DNA of 64,000 nt from Gardnerella vaginalis (GTDB lineage: Bacteria; Actinomycetota; Actinomycetes; Actinomycetales; Bifidobacteriaceae): the NCBI RefSeq assembly GCF_040427915.1, contig NZ_JBETXJ010000002.1, forward strand, positions 806,001 through 870,000. Reading direction: 5' to 3'. The notes under the pieces were generated by a model. The model was not told where the DNA came from. It made no database searches and saw nothing but the letters and a program-made list of their open reading frames with translations. The translations under genes were made by a program, and so were the position numbers. How positions within the stretch are numbered: position 1 is the first letter of the stretch; every line of letters begins with the position of its first letter. This document shows, piece by piece, positions 5,003 through 64,000 of this stretch.

Positions 5003-5031
5003 TTCAACGATACCAGGGGGGGGGGTATTAA
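5003..5031 (+). promoter_or_regulatory. Putative G10-tract (phase-variable) promoter of the pilus locus
   Basis: Ten consecutive Gs (5016-5025) sit directly against TATTAA (5026-5031), a plausible -10 box. TTCAAC (5003-5008) lies 17 bp upstream and is a weak -35. The tract therefore falls inside the spacer, where slippage would change promoter strength. The same G10-TAT arrangement occurs before the two surface-protein genes at 58.5 and 62.4 kb. The promoter assignment is inferred; the tract itself is seen directly. Confidence 0.6.
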
Positions 5032-56864: not shown

Positions 56865-57875
56865 TTAGTCTTGCTGCTTCCAAGTATCAACGTCAATATG
56901 ATGTTCTGGATTTGCTTGCCAAGCTTTCCATGCAGATTCAACTATGTCTTGCACGTTGTATTTTGCATGCCATCCCATTTCTTCGTTGATTCGCTTCGGG
57001 CTGCCAATTAGCTGAGGTGGGTCGCCAGCTCTACGATCTAGAATTGCCTCTTTAAATGGCAATTTCGTAACTTTGCGAATCTCTTCAACAATCTGGCGCA
57101 CTGATGTGCCTTTTCCAGTACCAACGTTAAACGCATCGTACTTGCGCTCGTCGCGATCCAAGTATGATAATGCAGCAATGTGTGCATCTGCAAGATCGGA
57201 AACATGAATGTAGTCGCGAATGCAAGTGCCGTCTGGAGTAGGGTAGTCGCTGCCAAAAATTGCAGGCGCTTTGCCTTTCTGTAAACGTTCAAGAAGCATA
57301 GGAATAAGGTTCAGTATAGCTGGATCTTCTAGCTCAACAGGTCCGCAGCCTGCAACGTTAAAGTAGCGTAGGGCGCAGAAGCGAATGCCGTATGGTTTTT
57401 CACATGCTCGTGCCATCCATTCGCCGAAGAGCTTTGTTTGACCATATGGGTTAATTGGAAGCATTGGCACAACGTCTTCTGGAACAACCTCTACAGGAGG
57501 CTCGCCGTATGTTGCAGCACTAGACGAGAACACGAGTTTTTTTGCTCCACTTTGTCGCATAGCTTCTAAAACATTAAGCATGCCGTTTATATTCTGCTGA
57601 TAGTACCAAAGAGGCTTTTCTACAGATTCCCCAACCTGCTTGCGCGCTGCAAAGTGAATAACGGAGTCAACATTTTCATCCTTCATGATTTGTGCAAGTC
57701 GCGCACCAGCGTCTGGAGAAGATATATCCATTCCATAAAGTCGCGCGCCTTCGATACGAGTTGGTTTGCCATAGCTAAGGTCATCCACTACGACGACGTT
57801 TTGCTTGGCTTGATGTAGTGCGTGAACAACGTGTGCGCCAATGTACCCGCATCCACCTGTTACAAGGACTGTCAT
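56865..57875 (-). CDS. galE: UDP-glucose 4-epimerase
   Basis: Interconverts UDP-galactose and UDP-glucose, closing the Leloir cycle begun by galK and galT. The start is ATG 57875 with GAAAGG upstream; the frame extends 53 codons further without signal or homology. 336 residues. NAD-binding VTGGCGYIGAHVVHAL at the N-terminus, then catalytic Ser in FSSSAATYG, and Tyr/Lys in NPYGQTKLFGEW, as in all short-chain epimerases. ALRYFNVAG and CIRDYIHVSDLADAH complete the family. Ordinary size. It stands alone, opposite to galT-galK. Confidence 0.96.
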   Translation of the reverse strand: MTVLVTGGCGYIGAHVVHALHQAKQNVVVVDDLSYGKPTRIEGARLYGMDISSPDAGARLAQIMKDENVDSVIHFAARKQVGESVEKPLWYYQQNINGMLNVLEAMRQSGAKKLVFSSSAATYGEPPVEVVPEDVVPMLPINPYGQTKLFGEWMARACEKPYGIRFCALRYFNVAGCGPVELEDPAILNLIPMLLERLQKGKAPAIFGSDYPTPDGTCIRDYIHVSDLADAHIAALSYLDRDERKYDAFNVGTGKGTSVRQIVEEIRKVTKLPFKEAILDRRAGDPPQLIGSPKRINEEMGWHAKYNVQDIVESAWKAWQANPEHHIDVDTWKQQD

Positions 57876-58199
57876 TTTGAAGCCTTTCTTGCATGTTTTA
57901 CGCAAAAGTATTGCATAAGATTTGTTATACGAACTTGGTTGTATAAGGTCGCTATATATAAGGCAAAAAATCATCATATAAAGCAAAAGCTGAAATAGAA
58001 AGATTGAAAAACATACAGATTGTGATACGCACATTTTCCATCAGTTCTGTGTTCATTTTTGCTCATATATGTTATCTTTTGTGATTTTAGTATACAACAC
58101 TTGCTCGAGAATTTGTACTTTTACAGCAAATTTTTAAAAGCGTGTGTGAATCTAGTTGTGCGCGATTGTATTGTAGCGTGGTGTTGGTGGGGTGTTGGT

Positions 58200-58498
58200 T
58201 TGACGTCGGTTTGGCGTGGTATCGGCGTGTTGCGTGTGTGATGTGTGTGGAATGTTGATTTTTCAATGGTTTTATAGTGTTAGTGTTCTTGCTTGAGTAG
58301 TTTCCTGAGAAAAGTCTGGGAAAATTCTTTAAAAACCTTGAAACAATGTGTTTTTACGGTTTTATTAGTGTTAATCCACAAATATTATGGTGAAAATAGT
58401 TTTTATTGTGGATTAGTTTGTGTGTAACATTATTTTTTTCTGTTTGTTTTGTGTGGTTGCCTCTTGACTTTTTTAAACGGGGGGGGGGTATGTTAATA
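58200..58498. repeat. Duplicated 299-bp leader, copy 1
   Basis: From TTGACGTCGG at 58200 to TATGTTAATAA near 58498 the sequence matches 62075-62373 with no insertion or deletion and one substitution seen (ATCGG against GTCGG). It includes the -35, the G10 tract and a 10-bp inverted repeat TAATCCACAA/TTGTGGATTA (58372-58415). The copies diverge right after the -10 and again before 58200, where similarity is only patchy. The region 57876-58199 has no other recognisable feature. Confidence 0.92.
58464..58494 (+). promoter_or_regulatory. Putative G10-tract promoter of surface-protein gene copy 1
   Basis: TTGACT (58464-58469) as -35, then a 19-bp spacer that ends in ten Gs (58479-58488), then TATGTT (58489-58494) as -10. 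A 17-bp spacer is optimal for sigma-70-type promoters, so an 8-G version would be the predicted strong state. This arrangement is seen directly; promoter activity is inferred. It lies ~125 bp before the ATG. Confidence 0.65.
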
Positions 58499-58618
58499 AC
58501 AGCTGCTAGCTAGATGCTCTAGATGGTGGTTATCCACAATGTTTCGGAAATGTTGTTGGATTTTTAATGTTTTCTCTTCGCGTGTTTTACGTGGAGGAGA
58601 AGAAGAAAGGAAATTAAA

Positions 58619-59875
58619 ATGATGAATAAGAAGGCTATCGCCGCTTTCGCTGCTGGCGCAACTTTGCTTGCCGGCTTCGCAATGGCAACCCCAGCAATGG
58701 CTGAAGAGACTCCAGTAGTTTACGTGAGTGTTGCTAAGGCTAAGACTGCTGCAGCTTACGAAGCTTACACTAAGGCTAAGGCTGTTTATGACGGTATGAC
58801 TGTAACCCCTAAGCCAGCAGAGCCTCTGTCTGTCGTTAAAGTTTACATCAATACGACTCCAGATCCTAAGACTGGTTTAATTGCTCTTGCACATGGTGCT
58901 ACAACAGATAGTGTTGTATACAAGTTGTATGTAGCGGCTCAGGATTATGTTAAGGCTTTCAATGCTAATGTTACAGAAACTAAGGCTAAGAATGCTAAGG
59001 CTGCTGAGGTTCAGGATCTTTTGAATAAGTATCTTGCTGCTAAGGCTGCTGAAGCTAATGCTGTTGCAGATCCAGTAGAGCCAACTTTGGCGGAGAAGCA
59101 GAAGAAGGCTATTGCTGATGTTTATACTGCTAAGCAGAAGGTTGATCAAACTAAGAATGATTTCGCTCATACTCATGAGACTTTTGTTGATGCTGCTAAG
59201 AAGTTGAAGGCTGCTAAGGCTGAGCTTGCGGAAGCTCAGGCTAAGTTGGATGCTGCTTTGGCTGCTGTGGAAGATTTCAAGGCTTCTGGTGTTAAGGATG
59301 ATGCAAAGCTTGAGCGTCTTGTGACTGCTTACAATCGTGCTGTGGCTCATGTGAAGCGAGTTAATGATATTGTTCTTGCTGCCAAGAGCAAAGCTTACGG
59401 AGAAGCTCAGGAAGCTAACGATAAGGCTCAGGGTGCTTATAATAAGGCTGTTGAGGCTTACAAGGCTGCTTATAATCATGCTGTTGAGTTGAATGTGAAT
59501 CCTGATCTTCTTCCAAAGATCACGCTTGTAGATCCAGCTTCTGATGCTTTCCCAGAGCTTTCTGAGGCTAAGAAGATTTATGATGATGCTTTGAGTGGTA
59601 AGTTTGGTGCTGCTGCTCAGAAGGCTGTTCAGAAGGCTGAAGCTAAGGCTAAGGCTGAGGCTGGTAAGAATGCTCCAGCTGCTGCTGCAAATGGTGCTGC
59701 TGCTCCAGCCGCTGCTGGTAAGGCTGCTGCTAAGGGTGAGCTTGCTAAGGGTGGCAATGGTCATGGTAAGGCTGGCGAGAAGCTTGGTAATGCTGGTGTT
59801 GGTGTTGCTTTGACTGCTTTGGCTGCTTCTATGCTTGCTGGTATGGGTGCTGCTGTTCGCAAGATGCGTCACTAA
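58619..59875 (+). CDS. Alanine-rich coiled-coil surface protein, copy 1
   Basis: A 418-residue secreted, probably cell-surface protein of unknown function. Signal peptide MMNKKAIAAFAAGATLLAGF...MATPAMA; then a long Ala/Lys/Glu/Asp helical region with heptad-like AKA...LEEA patterns (~residues 40-330) suggesting a coiled-coil rod, a low-complexity Ala/Gly/Pro segment (KNAPAAAANGAAAP), and a C-terminal LGNAG followed by hydrophobic VGVALTALAASMLAG and basic VRKMRH. This tail has the form of a sorting signal, with LGNAG where LPxTG would stand. AAAGGAAA lies before ATG 58619. The paralogue at 62495 shares both ends almost exactly but has a different middle. Homologues seem Gardnerella-like, but function is unassigned. 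Confidence 0.85.
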   Translation: MMNKKAIAAFAAGATLLAGFAMATPAMAEETPVVYVSVAKAKTAAAYEAYTKAKAVYDGMTVTPKPAEPLSVVKVYINTTPDPKTGLIALAHGATTDSVVYKLYVAAQDYVKAFNANVTETKAKNAKAAEVQDLLNKYLAAKAAEANAVADPVEPTLAEKQKKAIADVYTAKQKVDQTKNDFAHTHETFVDAAKKLKAAKAELAEAQAKLDAALAAVEDFKASGVKDDAKLERLVTAYNRAVAHVKRVNDIVLAAKSKAYGEAQEANDKAQGAYNKAVEAYKAAYNHAVELNVNPDLLPKITLVDPASDAFPELSEAKKIYDDALSGKFGAAAQKAVQKAEAKAKAEAGKNAPAAAANGAAAPAAAGKAAAKGELAKGGNGHGKAGEKLGNAGVGVALTALAASMLAGMGAAVRKMRH

Positions 59876-60140
59876 ACTAAAAGCACGTTAAGTGTTATCG
59901 GTGAGCGTGCTGCGTATTTTTCAGTGCGCTCACTTCTATGATTTTGCTCTCAGCTGTGGTAGTTTTCTTTGATTTCTGTCGCAAGTTTTCTTACAGGATT
60001 GCATTACTGGTTTTTACTGTTTTGCTTAATTTCCTTTTTTCGCAGTGGATTCTGGTGATGCTGGTTTTGTGAGTTGACTGTTGAGGGTAATTAGCAGTGC
60101 TGTTTTTGCTAGGGACAGTAATAGTGCTGTGATTATTAAG

Positions 60141-60188
60141 GGCTTGGAGATAGATGCTACTAGGGGCGTCAACTCTCCGAGCCTTTTT
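60141..60188 (+). terminator. Terminator downstream of surface-protein copy 1
   Basis: GGCTTGGAGA pairs with TCTCCGAGCC (one G-T) and TTTTTG follows. Between the stop at 59875 and this hairpin is ~260 nt of untranslated sequence; TGCTAGGGAC just before it (60107) also occurs in the 3' region of copy 2 (63917), so a conserved 3' UTR element is possible. Confidence 0.75.
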
Positions 60189-60276
60189 GTTTTCTTTAAA
60201 TCTTTTATTTTCAATTATTGAGCAATTTAATATTTTTGTACGTGTTGTGAGAGTTTAAAAATTTTGTAAAGAATTT

Positions 60277-60292
60277 GCACCAAAATTGGTGC
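60277..60292. promoter_or_regulatory. Palindrome upstream of the antitoxin gene, probable autoregulatory operator
   Basis: GCACCAA-AA-TTGGTGC, a perfect 7-bp inverted repeat, lies ~100 bp before the XRE gene in the likely promoter region. PezA-like antitoxins bind such sites to repress their own operon. Confidence 0.65.
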
Positions 60293-60389
60293 CTAAATGT
60301 TTTTTGTTATATGCTTATATCATAAATAAAGCTTAAATCTTAATTTTGAATTAATTGTTATTGCAGATTTTTTATAAAAGGGCGTATAT

Positions 60390-60863
60390 ATGGTTTCTGT
60401 GAATATTCGAGCACTACGTCGCTCAAAAAAATTAACTCAACAAGAGTTAGCTGAAGCATTAGGAGTATCTCGTAATAGCATTGTGCGATACGAAAATGGT
60501 ACAAGTGCTATTTCAACTAGGTTAATAGATAAGATTTGTAATAAATTCAAGGTTTCTCTTTTTGATATCGTACATGAAAAAGAATTATCTGCATCTGATA
60601 AATACGATTTGAATATGAAGATTGAAGTTTTAAAGGAGCGTGGCGCACTTTTACTGGCTCGTTTATATAAATACGAGGATAGTATGAATATACAATTTGA
60701 TGATTCTTCTAATGCATGGATTGCAATTAGTGATGATTTATCAGATGTAATTAATACAAAGATTTATACATCTACAAATTTTGAAGATATAAATCGTTAT
60801 ATCGGATATTTAGATGGCATAGAACGCTTGCTTGAATACGTAAGTTGCAATAAAAATAGTTAA
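60390..60863 (+). CDS. XRE-family antitoxin, PezA-like
   Basis: 157 residues, the size of PezA. The N-terminal helix-turn-helix is NIRALRRSKKLTQQELAEALGVSRNSIVRYENGTSAIS (~residues 4-41). The C-terminal half is a helical bundle with an acidic surface (KYEDSMNIQFDDSSNAW...SDDLSDVINTKIYT), as expected for a toxin-neutralising domain. AAAGGG stands before the ATG. The zeta toxin gene begins 18 bp after its stop. An operator palindrome lies upstream, supporting autoregulation. Assignment as PezA is from domain order and size rather than close sequence identity. Confidence 0.85.
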   Translation: MVSVNIRALRRSKKLTQQELAEALGVSRNSIVRYENGTSAISTRLIDKICNKFKVSLFDIVHEKELSASDKYDLNMKIEVLKERGALLLARLYKYEDSMNIQFDDSSNAWIAISDDLSDVINTKIYTSTNFEDINRYIGYLDGIERLLEYVSCNKNS

Positions 60864-60881
60864 CAATCGTATAGAAAAAAT

Positions 60882-61691
60882 ATGGGTAAGTGTGATTTTG
60901 CTATGGTTATAGAAGATTTTAGCGAAGAGTATTTTACTCACTGTTTGTTAAGAAATTTACGTTCTTTACAAATGTATAAGCATGCAGATTTGCATCCTAA
61001 GGCGGTTTTACTGGGTGGACAAAGTGGTGCTGGCAAAACGACCATTCATGTAATAAAACAAAAAGAATTTAACGGTAACATAATAATCCTTGATGCTGAT
61101 AGCTATAGGACTCAACACCCTCATTATTGCGAGTTGCTTGATAAATACGGTAAAGAAAGTGTTAAATATACGAGTGCTTTTTCCGCAAAAATGGTGAGAA
61201 GCCTAATTGATGAGTTAAGTTCTAAAAAATATAATCTCATAATTGAAGGTACTTTGCGCAGTGTTGAAGTTCCTAGCAGTACTGCGAAAATGTTGATAGA
61301 TCGTGGTTACCGTGTTTCTCTTGCTGTCATCGCAACAAAACCTGAATTGTCATGGATCAGTACGCTGATTCGCTACAGGGAAATGTATTTGGAAGATCCT
61401 AAAAGTGCTAGGGCAACTCCTAAGGATCATCACGACAATATTGTGAATAATATAGTAGATAACTTGTTGAAATTAGAAAAATCGAAAATATTTGACAGGA
61501 TTCAGATTTACAAGCGAGACGAAAAATGTATATATGATTCTGATTCGTATAAAAATAGTCCAAATATTACAGCAGCTAGTGTTCTTAAGGAAGTACTTTT
61601 TGGCAAGAAAACTATTGATGAGCAGAAGTTGATTTGTCACGCTAAGGATAGGTTGAAGGAATTAGACAAGTTGATAGATAAAAATTTGTAG
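60882..61691 (+). CDS. Zeta toxin (PezT-like UDP-GlcNAc kinase)
   Basis: Phosphotransferase-fold toxin. Zeta/PezT enzymes phosphorylate UDP-N-acetylglucosamine and block cell-wall synthesis; whether this one does is inferred. 269 residues. Walker A LGGQSGAGKTT (~residues 47-57), ILDADSYRTQHPHY with the catalytic Asp (~70) and LIIEGTLRS (~127) follow the PezT order; RYREMY with its arginines comes later. The sequence is shorter in GC and different in codon use from its neighbours (much AAA/ATA). It forms an operon with the PezA-like gene and lies between the two duplicated surface-protein genes. Confidence 0.88.
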   Translation: MGKCDFAMVIEDFSEEYFTHCLLRNLRSLQMYKHADLHPKAVLLGGQSGAGKTTIHVIKQKEFNGNIIILDADSYRTQHPHYCELLDKYGKESVKYTSAFSAKMVRSLIDELSSKKYNLIIEGTLRSVEVPSSTAKMLIDRGYRVSLAVIATKPELSWISTLIRYREMYLEDPKSARATPKDHHDNIVNNIVDNLLKLEKSKIFDRIQIYKRDEKCIYDSDSYKNSPNITAASVLKEVLFGKKTIDEQKLICHAKDRLKELDKLIDKNL

Positions 61692-61814
61692 TATTTGCAG
61701 AAGCTTGCATTAGTGTGGTTGATTTGCGCTAGTGGTTATTTTGTAGTGTTTTTGTTTTATTGTGCGCTTGTGCGTAATTGGGTTGAATTTTGCGTAAGAT
61801 GTGTTACGTTGTTT

Positions 61815-61930
61815 GCGCGGATTAGCCGCGCTCACGTCTTCGCCGCACGTAAAGTCCACTGGACTTTACGTTTAAGCGGCTCAGCGCTCCGAATTGCCTT
61901 CGCGCGCTACGCTTTAAGCGCGAAGTTGTA
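61815..61930. repeat. Family-2 repeat element (inverted relative to 31.9 kb)
   Basis: CGCTCACGTCTTCGCCGCAC followed by GTAAAGTCCACTGGACTTTACG (two parts, 61829-61870) is the reverse complement of 32003-32046, with one or two differences. CGCGCGCTACGCTTTAAGCG (61901-61920) is the reverse of the CGCTTAAAGCGTAGCGCG motif. A family-1 unit follows directly. No gene is supported in 61692-62074. Confidence 0.85.
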
Positions 61931-62025
61931 GATTCGCCCGATATTGTTTATTTTTGCCTGTGTTTGTGTATTTTTGCCCGCATTTGTTTCTATTTTGCTC
62001 AAAAAGGGAACAAACGCGGGAATCT
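61931..62025. repeat. Family-1 repeat, partial cluster
   Basis: Three left-arm-like segments (GCCCGATATTGTTT, GCCTGTGTTTGTG, GCCCGCATTTGTTT) precede one complete palindrome ending GGGAACAAACGCGGG at 62019. It adjoins family 2, as at 31.7-32.1 kb. Confidence 0.8.
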
Positions 62026-62074
62026 AGTTGTGTGTGGGATTGCCTTGTAGCATGGCATTTCGTTTGATGTTGGC

Positions 62075-62373
62075 TTGACGTCGGTTTGGCGTGGTGTCGG
62101 CGTGTTGCGTGTGTGATGTGTGTGGAATGTTGATTTTTCAATGGTTTTATAGTGTTAGTGTTCTTGCTTGAGTAGTTTCCTGAGAAAAGTCTGGGAAAAT
62201 TCTTTAAAAACCTTGAAACAATGTGTTTTTACGGTTTTATTAGTGTTAATCCACAAATATTATGGTGAAAATAGTTTTTATTGTGGATTAGTTTGTGTGT
62301 AACATTATTTTTTTCTGTTTGTTTTGTGTGGTTGCCTCTTGACTTTTTTAAACGGGGGGGGGGTATGTTAATA
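62075..62373. repeat. Duplicated 299-bp leader, copy 2
   Basis: Counterpart of 58200-58498 at constant offset 3875 with one substitution seen. The identity stops within 2-3 nt after TATGTTAATAA. Such near-identity in non-coding DNA beside divergent coding centres implies recent duplication or continuing gene conversion. Confidence 0.92.
62339..62369 (+). promoter_or_regulatory. Putative G10-tract promoter of surface-protein gene copy 2
   Basis: TTGACT (62339-62344), 19-bp spacer ending in ten Gs (62354-62363), TATGTT (62364-62369): identical to the copy-1 promoter. ATG is ~125 bp downstream. Confidence 0.65.
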
Positions 62374-62494
62374 AGCAAACGCTAGCTGCTCCTAGTTTTG
62401 GCTGGTGTTTAAACCACTATTCACGTGTTGTGGATTGTGGAGCAAATTTTTCTCTGCGCCCCTAACGCAGAGGAGAAGAAGAAAGGAAATTAAA

Positions 62495-63739
62495 ATGATG
62501 AATAAGAAGGCTATCGCTGCTTTCGCTGCTGGCGCTACTTTGCTTGCCGGCTTCGCAATGGCAACCCCAGCAATGGCTGCTACAACCTGCCCAGTGCCTG
62601 CACCACTCAAGAGTGCTGCTAAGACTGCTGCTGATGCTGCTTACACTGCTTACCATAATGCTCAGGTTGTTCTTGAAGGTATGACAGTTTCTCCAGCTCC
62701 TGCAAAGGATTCTGAGGCTGAACATTATACTGTTAAAGTTTTGGCTACTGGCTTGTTGAAGAATAATGCTGATTCATCTGAAGTCTCACATGATTTGTAT
62801 GAGAGGGTTCAGAAGTATGTGGATGCTTACAATGCTCATTTAACTTCCAAGGCTGCTTATGATGATCAGAATACTAAGGTTGAGAACCTTAAGGCTGAGT
62901 GGATTAAGGCTAAGGATATTCTTGAGAATTGCGCTAAGCCAGATCCAACTAAGGATGAGCTTAATCGTGCTGAGATTAAGAAGGTTTACGACGCTAAGCA
63001 GGCTAAGGATAATAAGGAAGATATCCTTAATAAGAAGCAGAAGGCTTTCGATGATGCTTTCAAGGCTTTGAATGCTGCTACTGCTGAGGCTAAAGCTCGT
63101 CAAGCTGCTGTTGATGCTGCGCAAGCTGCTATCGATAAGTTTGAGGCTTCTGGCGTGACGGATTCTGCTACTCTCCAGAAGTTAAACGATGCTCTTAAGC
63201 GTGCTCAGGCTCATCGTGATCGTGCCTTTAAAGCCCTTGGAGATGCTCAGAAGGCTTACGATGATGCTTTGAAGGATGTTAAGAAGGCTGTTTCTGATTA
63301 CAATGATGCTTTAGCTTATTACAAGGCTGTTTACAATGAGGCTGTTGCTATGGGTATTAACCCAGATGATTTGCCACCAGTTGTGACTGATGATCCTTTG
63401 GATCCAAAGTTCCCAACCGTTCCAGATGCTCGTGATCTTTACTCTAAGGCTTTGAGTGGTAAGTTTGGTAAGGATGTTCAGCAGGCGGCTCAGAAGGCTG
63501 AGGCTGGTAAGAATGCTCCAGCCGCTGCTGGCGCTCAGGGTGCTGCTGGTGCAGCTGGCGCTGCCGCTGGTAAGGCTGGTGCCGCTGCTGCTAAGGGTGA
63601 GCTTGCTACCAAGGGTGGCAATAGCCATGGTAAGGCTGGCGAGAAGCTTGGTAATGCTGGTGTTGGTGTTGCTTTGACTGCTTTGGCTGCTTCTATGCTT
63701 GCTGGTATGGGTGCTGCTGTTCGCAAGATGCGTCACTAA
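62495..63739 (+). CDS. Alanine-rich coiled-coil surface protein, copy 2
   Basis: A 414-residue paralogue of the gene at 58619. The start is ATG 62495, with AAAGGAAA upstream, because the peptide MMNKKAIAAFAAGATLLAGF matches copy 1; the open frame reaching back to 62405 is leader. After the signal peptide the sequence diverges (TTCPVPAPLKSAAKTAADAA...), including two to three cysteines, then regains the Ala/Lys/Asp coiled-coil character (LNRAEIKKVYDAKQAKD; KAFDDAFKALNAATAEAK). An Ala/Gly linker leads to the same C-terminus, LGNAG-hydrophobic-VRKMRH, and the last ~110 bp are essentially identical to copy 1. Role unknown; coat, adhesin or decoy antigen are possible. Confidence 0.85.
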   Translation: MMNKKAIAAFAAGATLLAGFAMATPAMAATTCPVPAPLKSAAKTAADAAYTAYHNAQVVLEGMTVSPAPAKDSEAEHYTVKVLATGLLKNNADSSEVSHDLYERVQKYVDAYNAHLTSKAAYDDQNTKVENLKAEWIKAKDILENCAKPDPTKDELNRAEIKKVYDAKQAKDNKEDILNKKQKAFDDAFKALNAATAEAKARQAAVDAAQAAIDKFEASGVTDSATLQKLNDALKRAQAHRDRAFKALGDAQKAYDDALKDVKKAVSDYNDALAYYKAVYNEAVAMGINPDDLPPVVTDDPLDPKFPTVPDARDLYSKALSGKFGKDVQQAAQKAEAGKNAPAAAGAQGAAGAAGAAAGKAGAAAAKGELATKGGNSHGKAGEKLGNAGVGVALTALAASMLAGMGAAVRKMRH

Positions 63740-63947
63740 GTTAAAAGGCTTGCGTTGAGCGTGTGATACGCATGTTGTTTTTCTTCACGTGTATCACAAG
63801 CTTTCAAATAGTGGCTTGGGTTTCGTGTGGTTTGCCGAAAATTTCCTTTTCTTACCATATGGAGTTTGGGTTGCTGTTTGATTGTGCTTGATGCTTGTTG
63901 CTGGTTGGTGGTTTCCTGCTAGGGACGGGATTCTTCCTTCTGGTTTT

Positions 63948-63984
63948 AAGGGTTTGTTAGATTACTTCTAACAAACCCTTTTTA
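63948..63984 (+). terminator. Terminator after surface-protein copy 2
   Basis: AAGGGTTTGTTAG and CTAACAAACCCTT form a perfect 13-bp stem with a short loop, followed by TTTTT. The ~200-nt 3' UTR before it contains another hairpin (GTGTGATACG / CGTGTATCACA, about 63758-63803). Confidence 0.9.
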
Positions 63985-64000
63985 TGTTTTGTGTGTTTTA

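Follow-up and report, generated by a model that had tools for sequence, protein, structure and literature searches.

The window (the whole 64,000-nt stretch of Gardnerella vaginalis DNA that was analysed) carries two paralogous genes for predicted surface proteins on the forward strand, at 58619–59875 (418 aa) and 62495–63739 (414 aa). Both proteins share one signal peptide and have an A/K-rich body, with LGNAG, a hydrophobic stretch and RKMRH in the C-terminal tail; neither reached the cut-off for any Pfam or NCBIfam family. The signal peptide and the sorting-type tail agreed with the initial annotation, which had read the downstream gene as encoding a surface-type protein. Among the 34 sequences compared, the C-terminal motif in some relatives was LPKSG, LPQSG or LSKTG, followed by a hydrophobic stretch and a basic tail, indicating that a sortase-type anchor is likely, if degenerate, in the window proteins. 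The family consists of secreted, probably wall-anchored proteins, and we infer that they are displayed on the surface. All the named relatives among the 120 listed of 507 matches to the downstream protein belonged to Gardnerella or Bifidobacteriaceae NR021. Compared with P0001 and P0027, the relatives P0008 and P0013 were mosaics, in which one variable segment resembled the 62.5-kb gene and the rest the 58.6-kb gene. A PezA/PezT-like (epsilon/zeta) toxin-antitoxin pair lay between the two surface-protein copies (60390–61691); it exceeded the Pfam cut-offs but fell below those of NCBIfam for PezA/PezT.

Upstream of the 418-aa gene, and on the same strand, a -35 element TTGACT (58464–58469) was followed by a 19-bp spacer (58470–58488), consisting of TTTTTAAAC and then ten Gs (G10, 58479–58488), and by a -10 element TATGTT (58489–58494), which agrees with TATAAT at four of six positions. 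Direct reading of 58464–58494 thus reproduced the arrangement first annotated there, and the further promoter copy expected near 62.3 kb was found at 62339–62369, with TTGACT (62339–62344), again a G10 (62354–62363) and TATGTT (62364–62369). In relatives the -10 element was TATGTT or TATCTT. Alignment of the 300-bp upstream blocks of the two copies (58200–58499 and 62075–62374, both forward), each ending at TATGTTAATAA, revealed one substitution; 3′ of TATGTTAATAA the two leader sequences diverged.

The window contained nine overlapping matches to G8, representing three G10 tracts, where 100 dinucleotide shuffles averaged 0.10 and never reached nine; chance is excluded as the source of these runs. 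Two other roles of the tract, in reiterative transcription and in translational frameshifting, were rejected: lying upstream of the -10 element, it is not transcribed from this promoter, and it was covered by no ORF of at least 80 aa.

A tract promoter dedicated to one gene family

In 112 genomes of the GTDB genus, a search was made with a promoter pattern permitting any 3–25 letters at the position of the tract. All 34 matches contained an uninterrupted G9, G10 or G11, and in all of them the tract ended 119–132 nt 5′ of a family start codon (for L078, the protein to residue 19), so that the tract promoter is dedicated to one gene family. It was present in 11 of the 112 genomes, all of 1.5–1.8 Mb, in a genus that includes larger genomes. 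Six paralogues in the window's genome were preceded by it. An independent census, using the ribosome-binding site and first codons but not the promoter as query, yielded 45 family genes in 12 genomes, 34 with a tract promoter and 11 tract-less. By coordinates, 33 of the 34 corresponded to matches of the promoter search; L259, missed by the pattern, was read separately. One further tract promoter (G045:C16), outside the ribosome-site pattern, brought the total to 35, and a tract case in G021 broken by unknown bases was left out.

In these 35 promoters, at 1–6 tract-bearing copies per genome, a homopolymer of at least eight lay between TTGACT and TAT[G/C]TT: G9 in 10, G10 in 23 and G11 in two, corresponding to spacers of 18–20 bp. 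The core was near-invariant compared with a mean of 66% over 45 upstream columns, conservation that was partly fixed by the search pattern (TTGACTTTT of the -35 element was in the pattern for 34 of the 35). The non-G part of the spacer was also similar across the family (TTTTNNNAAC); this too was partly imposed by the pattern, yet it was read in L259, which was found without it. Promoter spacers clustered mostly by genome. In a contig scan, 15 of the 119 matches listed had a G-run of at least 7, of which 11 were in Gardnerella or Bifidobacteriaceae NR021 and four were L210, L212, L214 and L222. Virus contigs gave two promoter matches, neither with a G-run of at least 7.

Tract length varied among close copies. 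In the window's genome two recent duplicates, one at 630 kb with G9 and one at 732 kb with G10, were 99.6% identical over 1762 bp; a single G was the sole difference across ~1.67 kb, and one substitution and a 3-bp indel lay near the 3′ end. Length thus differed between otherwise identical alleles, which here are two paralogues and may include an assembly error. Unequal lengths also occurred within six of 11 genomes, that is, in six of the nine with more than one copy. Both observations are as slippage predicts, with homopolymer assembly error as a possible source of the G9/G10/G11 differences, a caution also raised in the accessible parts of PMC11287997 and PMC9187656. Exactly one G9 was present in six of 11 genomes (permutation P 0.23), and a rule of one short tract per genome marking the expressed copy was not supported.

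The standard optimum spacing between -35 and -10 elements is 17 bp, and the tract had first been proposed to switch by slipping two bases to G8. This step was not supported: none of the 35 natural promoters was G8, only G9, G10 and G11 occurred, and the assumed best state, a tract-bearing 17-bp allele, was never seen. The observed range is one-base steps among 18, 19 and 20 bp. A spacing of 17 bp did appear, as a candidate, among the tract-less relatives, which bears out the importance first attached to it. Eight of the 11 tract-less genes had a candidate promoter of TTGATT or TTGAGT, 17 bp, and TATCTT or TAAGTT, located 134–143 nt 5′ of the same anchor; these are candidates since other hexamer pairs were equal or better in most of the eight regions. 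The other three had an unrelated leader. Such a 17-bp sibling was found in eight of 12 genomes and at most once per genome, suggesting that the eight are orthologues rather than independent cases. In Gardnerella too, 17 bp may be the optimum.

Leader RNA and other G tracts of the genome

The predicted mRNA leader of the first copy (58501–58618, forward) folded into three hairpins, the last adjoining GGAGAAGAAGAAAGGA, and that of the second copy (62376–62494, forward) folded into three hairpins of different sequence. Both were more stable than any of 200 shuffles (z -3.48 and -4.11, respectively). When 35 tract-bearing and eight tract-less leaders were folded singly from the first base 3′ of the -10 element, three hairpins were predicted in all 43, with the first paired base 7–11 nt 3′ of the -10 element in 41; in the remaining two the distance was 4 or 5 nt. 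The last hairpin, directly 5′ of GGAGAAGAAGAAAGGA, showed covariation (25 of 28 distinct sequences): 93.2% of cells were paired versus 54–72% in slid versions, a comparison favoured by taking the tested structure from one of the compared sequences. Six of its 13 pairs were changed on both sides, as reached by two of 500 shuffles. Alignment gaps made for poor consensus folds of leader types B and C, and the first hairpins of type B were not recovered; hairpin counts were taken from single-sequence folds. No known RNA family was found in 57800–64000 (Rfam, E up to 1). The three-hairpin leader was kept despite strongly diverged sequence, with its last hairpin before the ribosome-binding site, and possibly serves as an mRNA stabiliser. 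A structured RNA beginning at the 5′ end predicted from the promoter supports, without proving, TATGTT as the true -10 element.

The whole genome (G000) contained 22 G-tracts of at least 9 (54 overlapping matches, merged by hand) but lacked runs of exactly 7 or 8 Gs, which gives the distribution of lengths two sharp peaks. TAT directly followed 13 of the 22 tracts (7 of 16 after repeats were collapsed by hand), compared with a rate of 2.2% in the window for TAT after a G that precedes a non-G. Seven of these 13 tracts belonged outside the surface-protein family. In five of the seven an ORF started 129–246 nt downstream on the same strand; of the other two, the first was followed by just a weak ORF, at 269 nt, and the second lay inside a 489-codon frame. 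Judged from TAT and ORF positions, a tract adjoining the -10 element may therefore be a more general design. The third G10 of the window (5016–5025) was followed by TATTAA, and an ORF with a signal-peptide-like start lay 246 nt downstream. The commonest tract length elsewhere in the genome was 10, the same as in the family promoters, so that the promoter lengths could reflect a mutational equilibrium.

Promoter spacing as a predicted point of control

Similar arrangements are described in other bacteria. The excerpts of PMC7864442 report poly-G tracts of ~7–11 in or at the promoters of several Treponema pallidum paralogues (tp0126, tprL, tprE/G/J), as in Gardnerella; in tp0126 the tract sits within the -35/-10 spacer and a 17-nt spacing, stated there as the optimum, worked best, while the tprL promoter showed activity at 8 G but did not rise significantly over background at 10. 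The same excerpts note no clear correlation between G number and expression in vivo, and place the tprL start site at the fourth nucleotide 3′ of the tract, unlike the start predicted in Gardnerella. The Treponema genes encode outer-membrane proteins unrelated to the Gardnerella family, in a different phylum, and their length-dependence was measured with reporters, whereas that of Gardnerella is predicted. In Neisseria meningitidis, fetA (poly-C; PMC13293289, in part) and porA (poly-G; as described in the excerpts of PMC7864442) likewise encode surface proteins and carry a homopolymer within their core promoters, and expression is graded by length. These are single genes; Gardnerella has 1–6 tract copies of one promoter per genome, and a tract-less sibling in eight of 12 genomes. 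The G tracts at the pilus switch of Bifidobacterium breve UCC2003, in a related genus, have measured slippage (G9–G12) and serve sortase-dependent surface structures, but lie within coding sequence; promoter-spacer tracts receive one sentence in the accessible text (PMC9187656).

In the window, the G10 probably controls the spacing of the surface-protein promoters. Its position, its conservation, its dedication to one gene family and the one-G difference between otherwise identical copies were observed, whereas slippage within a clone, an effect on transcription and the sense of the switch are predicted. The tract would act as a contingency element of simple sequence within the -35/-10 spacer of a promoter of the housekeeping-sigma type, where DNA polymerase slippage would gain or lose single Gs and set the spacing at 18, 19 or 20 bp. 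A shorter tract, closer to 17 bp, would give more transcription and a longer one less; by analogy with tp0126 and tprL, G9 would be the higher state and G10–G11 the lower, with no need for a two-base jump to G8. Of the switch originally proposed, the location in the promoter spacer, conserved in 35 promoters, was retained and the two-base jump was dropped. With a separate tract at every paralogue, the cells of one clone would differ in the subset of these proteins that they show.

The observed lengths suit another reading, in which tract length varies but expression hardly does, G9–G11 all being permissive and the variation near-neutral. The G-run could alter helix geometry so that 18–20 bp becomes workable; all 35 natural alleles fall in that range and none at 17 bp, and other tracts of the genome have similar lengths, whether or not their surroundings resemble a promoter. 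The candidate 17-bp promoter in eight of 11 tract-less family genes speaks against it, as does the tprL promoter, with activity at 8 G and no significant excess over background at 10 (PMC7864442, excerpts), and we regard near-neutral variation as unlikely. A regulator might instead bind the conserved -35 element, spacer and G-run, with tract length tuning its binding rather than polymerase spacing. The likeness of the non-G spacer part (TTTTNNNAAC, partly pattern-imposed but also in L259) would fit such a protein, and the same excerpts mention a CRP homologue acting with tract length at Treponema tpr promoters, as well as a proposed regulator of opc. Both hexamers of the Gardnerella promoter are clean, though, with the tract between them, and the candidate tract-less promoters retain similar hexamers at 17 bp, which makes a regulator site quite improbable as the explanation. 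The near-identity of 300 bp 5′ of both window copies, the grouping of spacers mostly by genome and the mosaic N-terminal halves of relatives such as P0008 and P0013 would be expected if the conserved block were mainly a recombination handle through which paralogues swap parts by gene conversion, with the G tract a passenger. This would leave unexplained a pure G9–G11 adjoining the -10 element in 35 of 35 tract copies next to a diverged leader, and as a full account it is very improbable; a recombination handle and a spacing switch are compatible.

Spacing control by the tract may also be part of a larger coat system, which we put forward tentatively as a whole: a fixed 17-bp member in most species (found in eight of 12 genomes) would stand beside up to six copies tuned independently of one another by single Gs, gene conversion would keep the promoters alike, the three-hairpin leader would be shared, and each cell would display its own random, graded mix of mosaic surface proteins. 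If spacing control is true, clonal Gardnerella populations would be mixed at the cell surface through a genus-wide multigene switch, with relevance to colony variants and possibly to immune avoidance in bacterial vaginosis. The family layout is unusually informative, as the tract-less siblings and the natural G9, G10 and G11 alleles are ready comparisons that make the spacing rule testable in an actinobacterium.

Slippage at NanH3 of Gardnerella was reportedly described by Kurukulasuriya in 2021. Gardnerella genomes have a median of 20 G/C tracts according to the accessible text of PMC11287997, which places those of at least 8 mostly 5′ of ORFs in the studied strains, many at surface proteins, and records one, at a GA-module gene, as 9 versus 10 between colonies. 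In that text 'spacer' is absent, 'promoter' occurs once, and neither this surface-protein family nor the -35/-10 arrangement is described. That homopolymer tracts are plentiful and variable in Gardnerella, those 5′ of surface-protein genes included, is therefore already known. In the open-access literature covered, mostly by title and start of abstract, no description of the -35/-10 spacer arrangement was found for this family, and its predicted promoter-spacer switch seems undescribed. A primer sequence used in PMC11287997 lay in a dispersed repeat of G000, occurring at 14 places (13 exact and one with a mismatch), and two of its copies lay <600 bp from other G-tracts.
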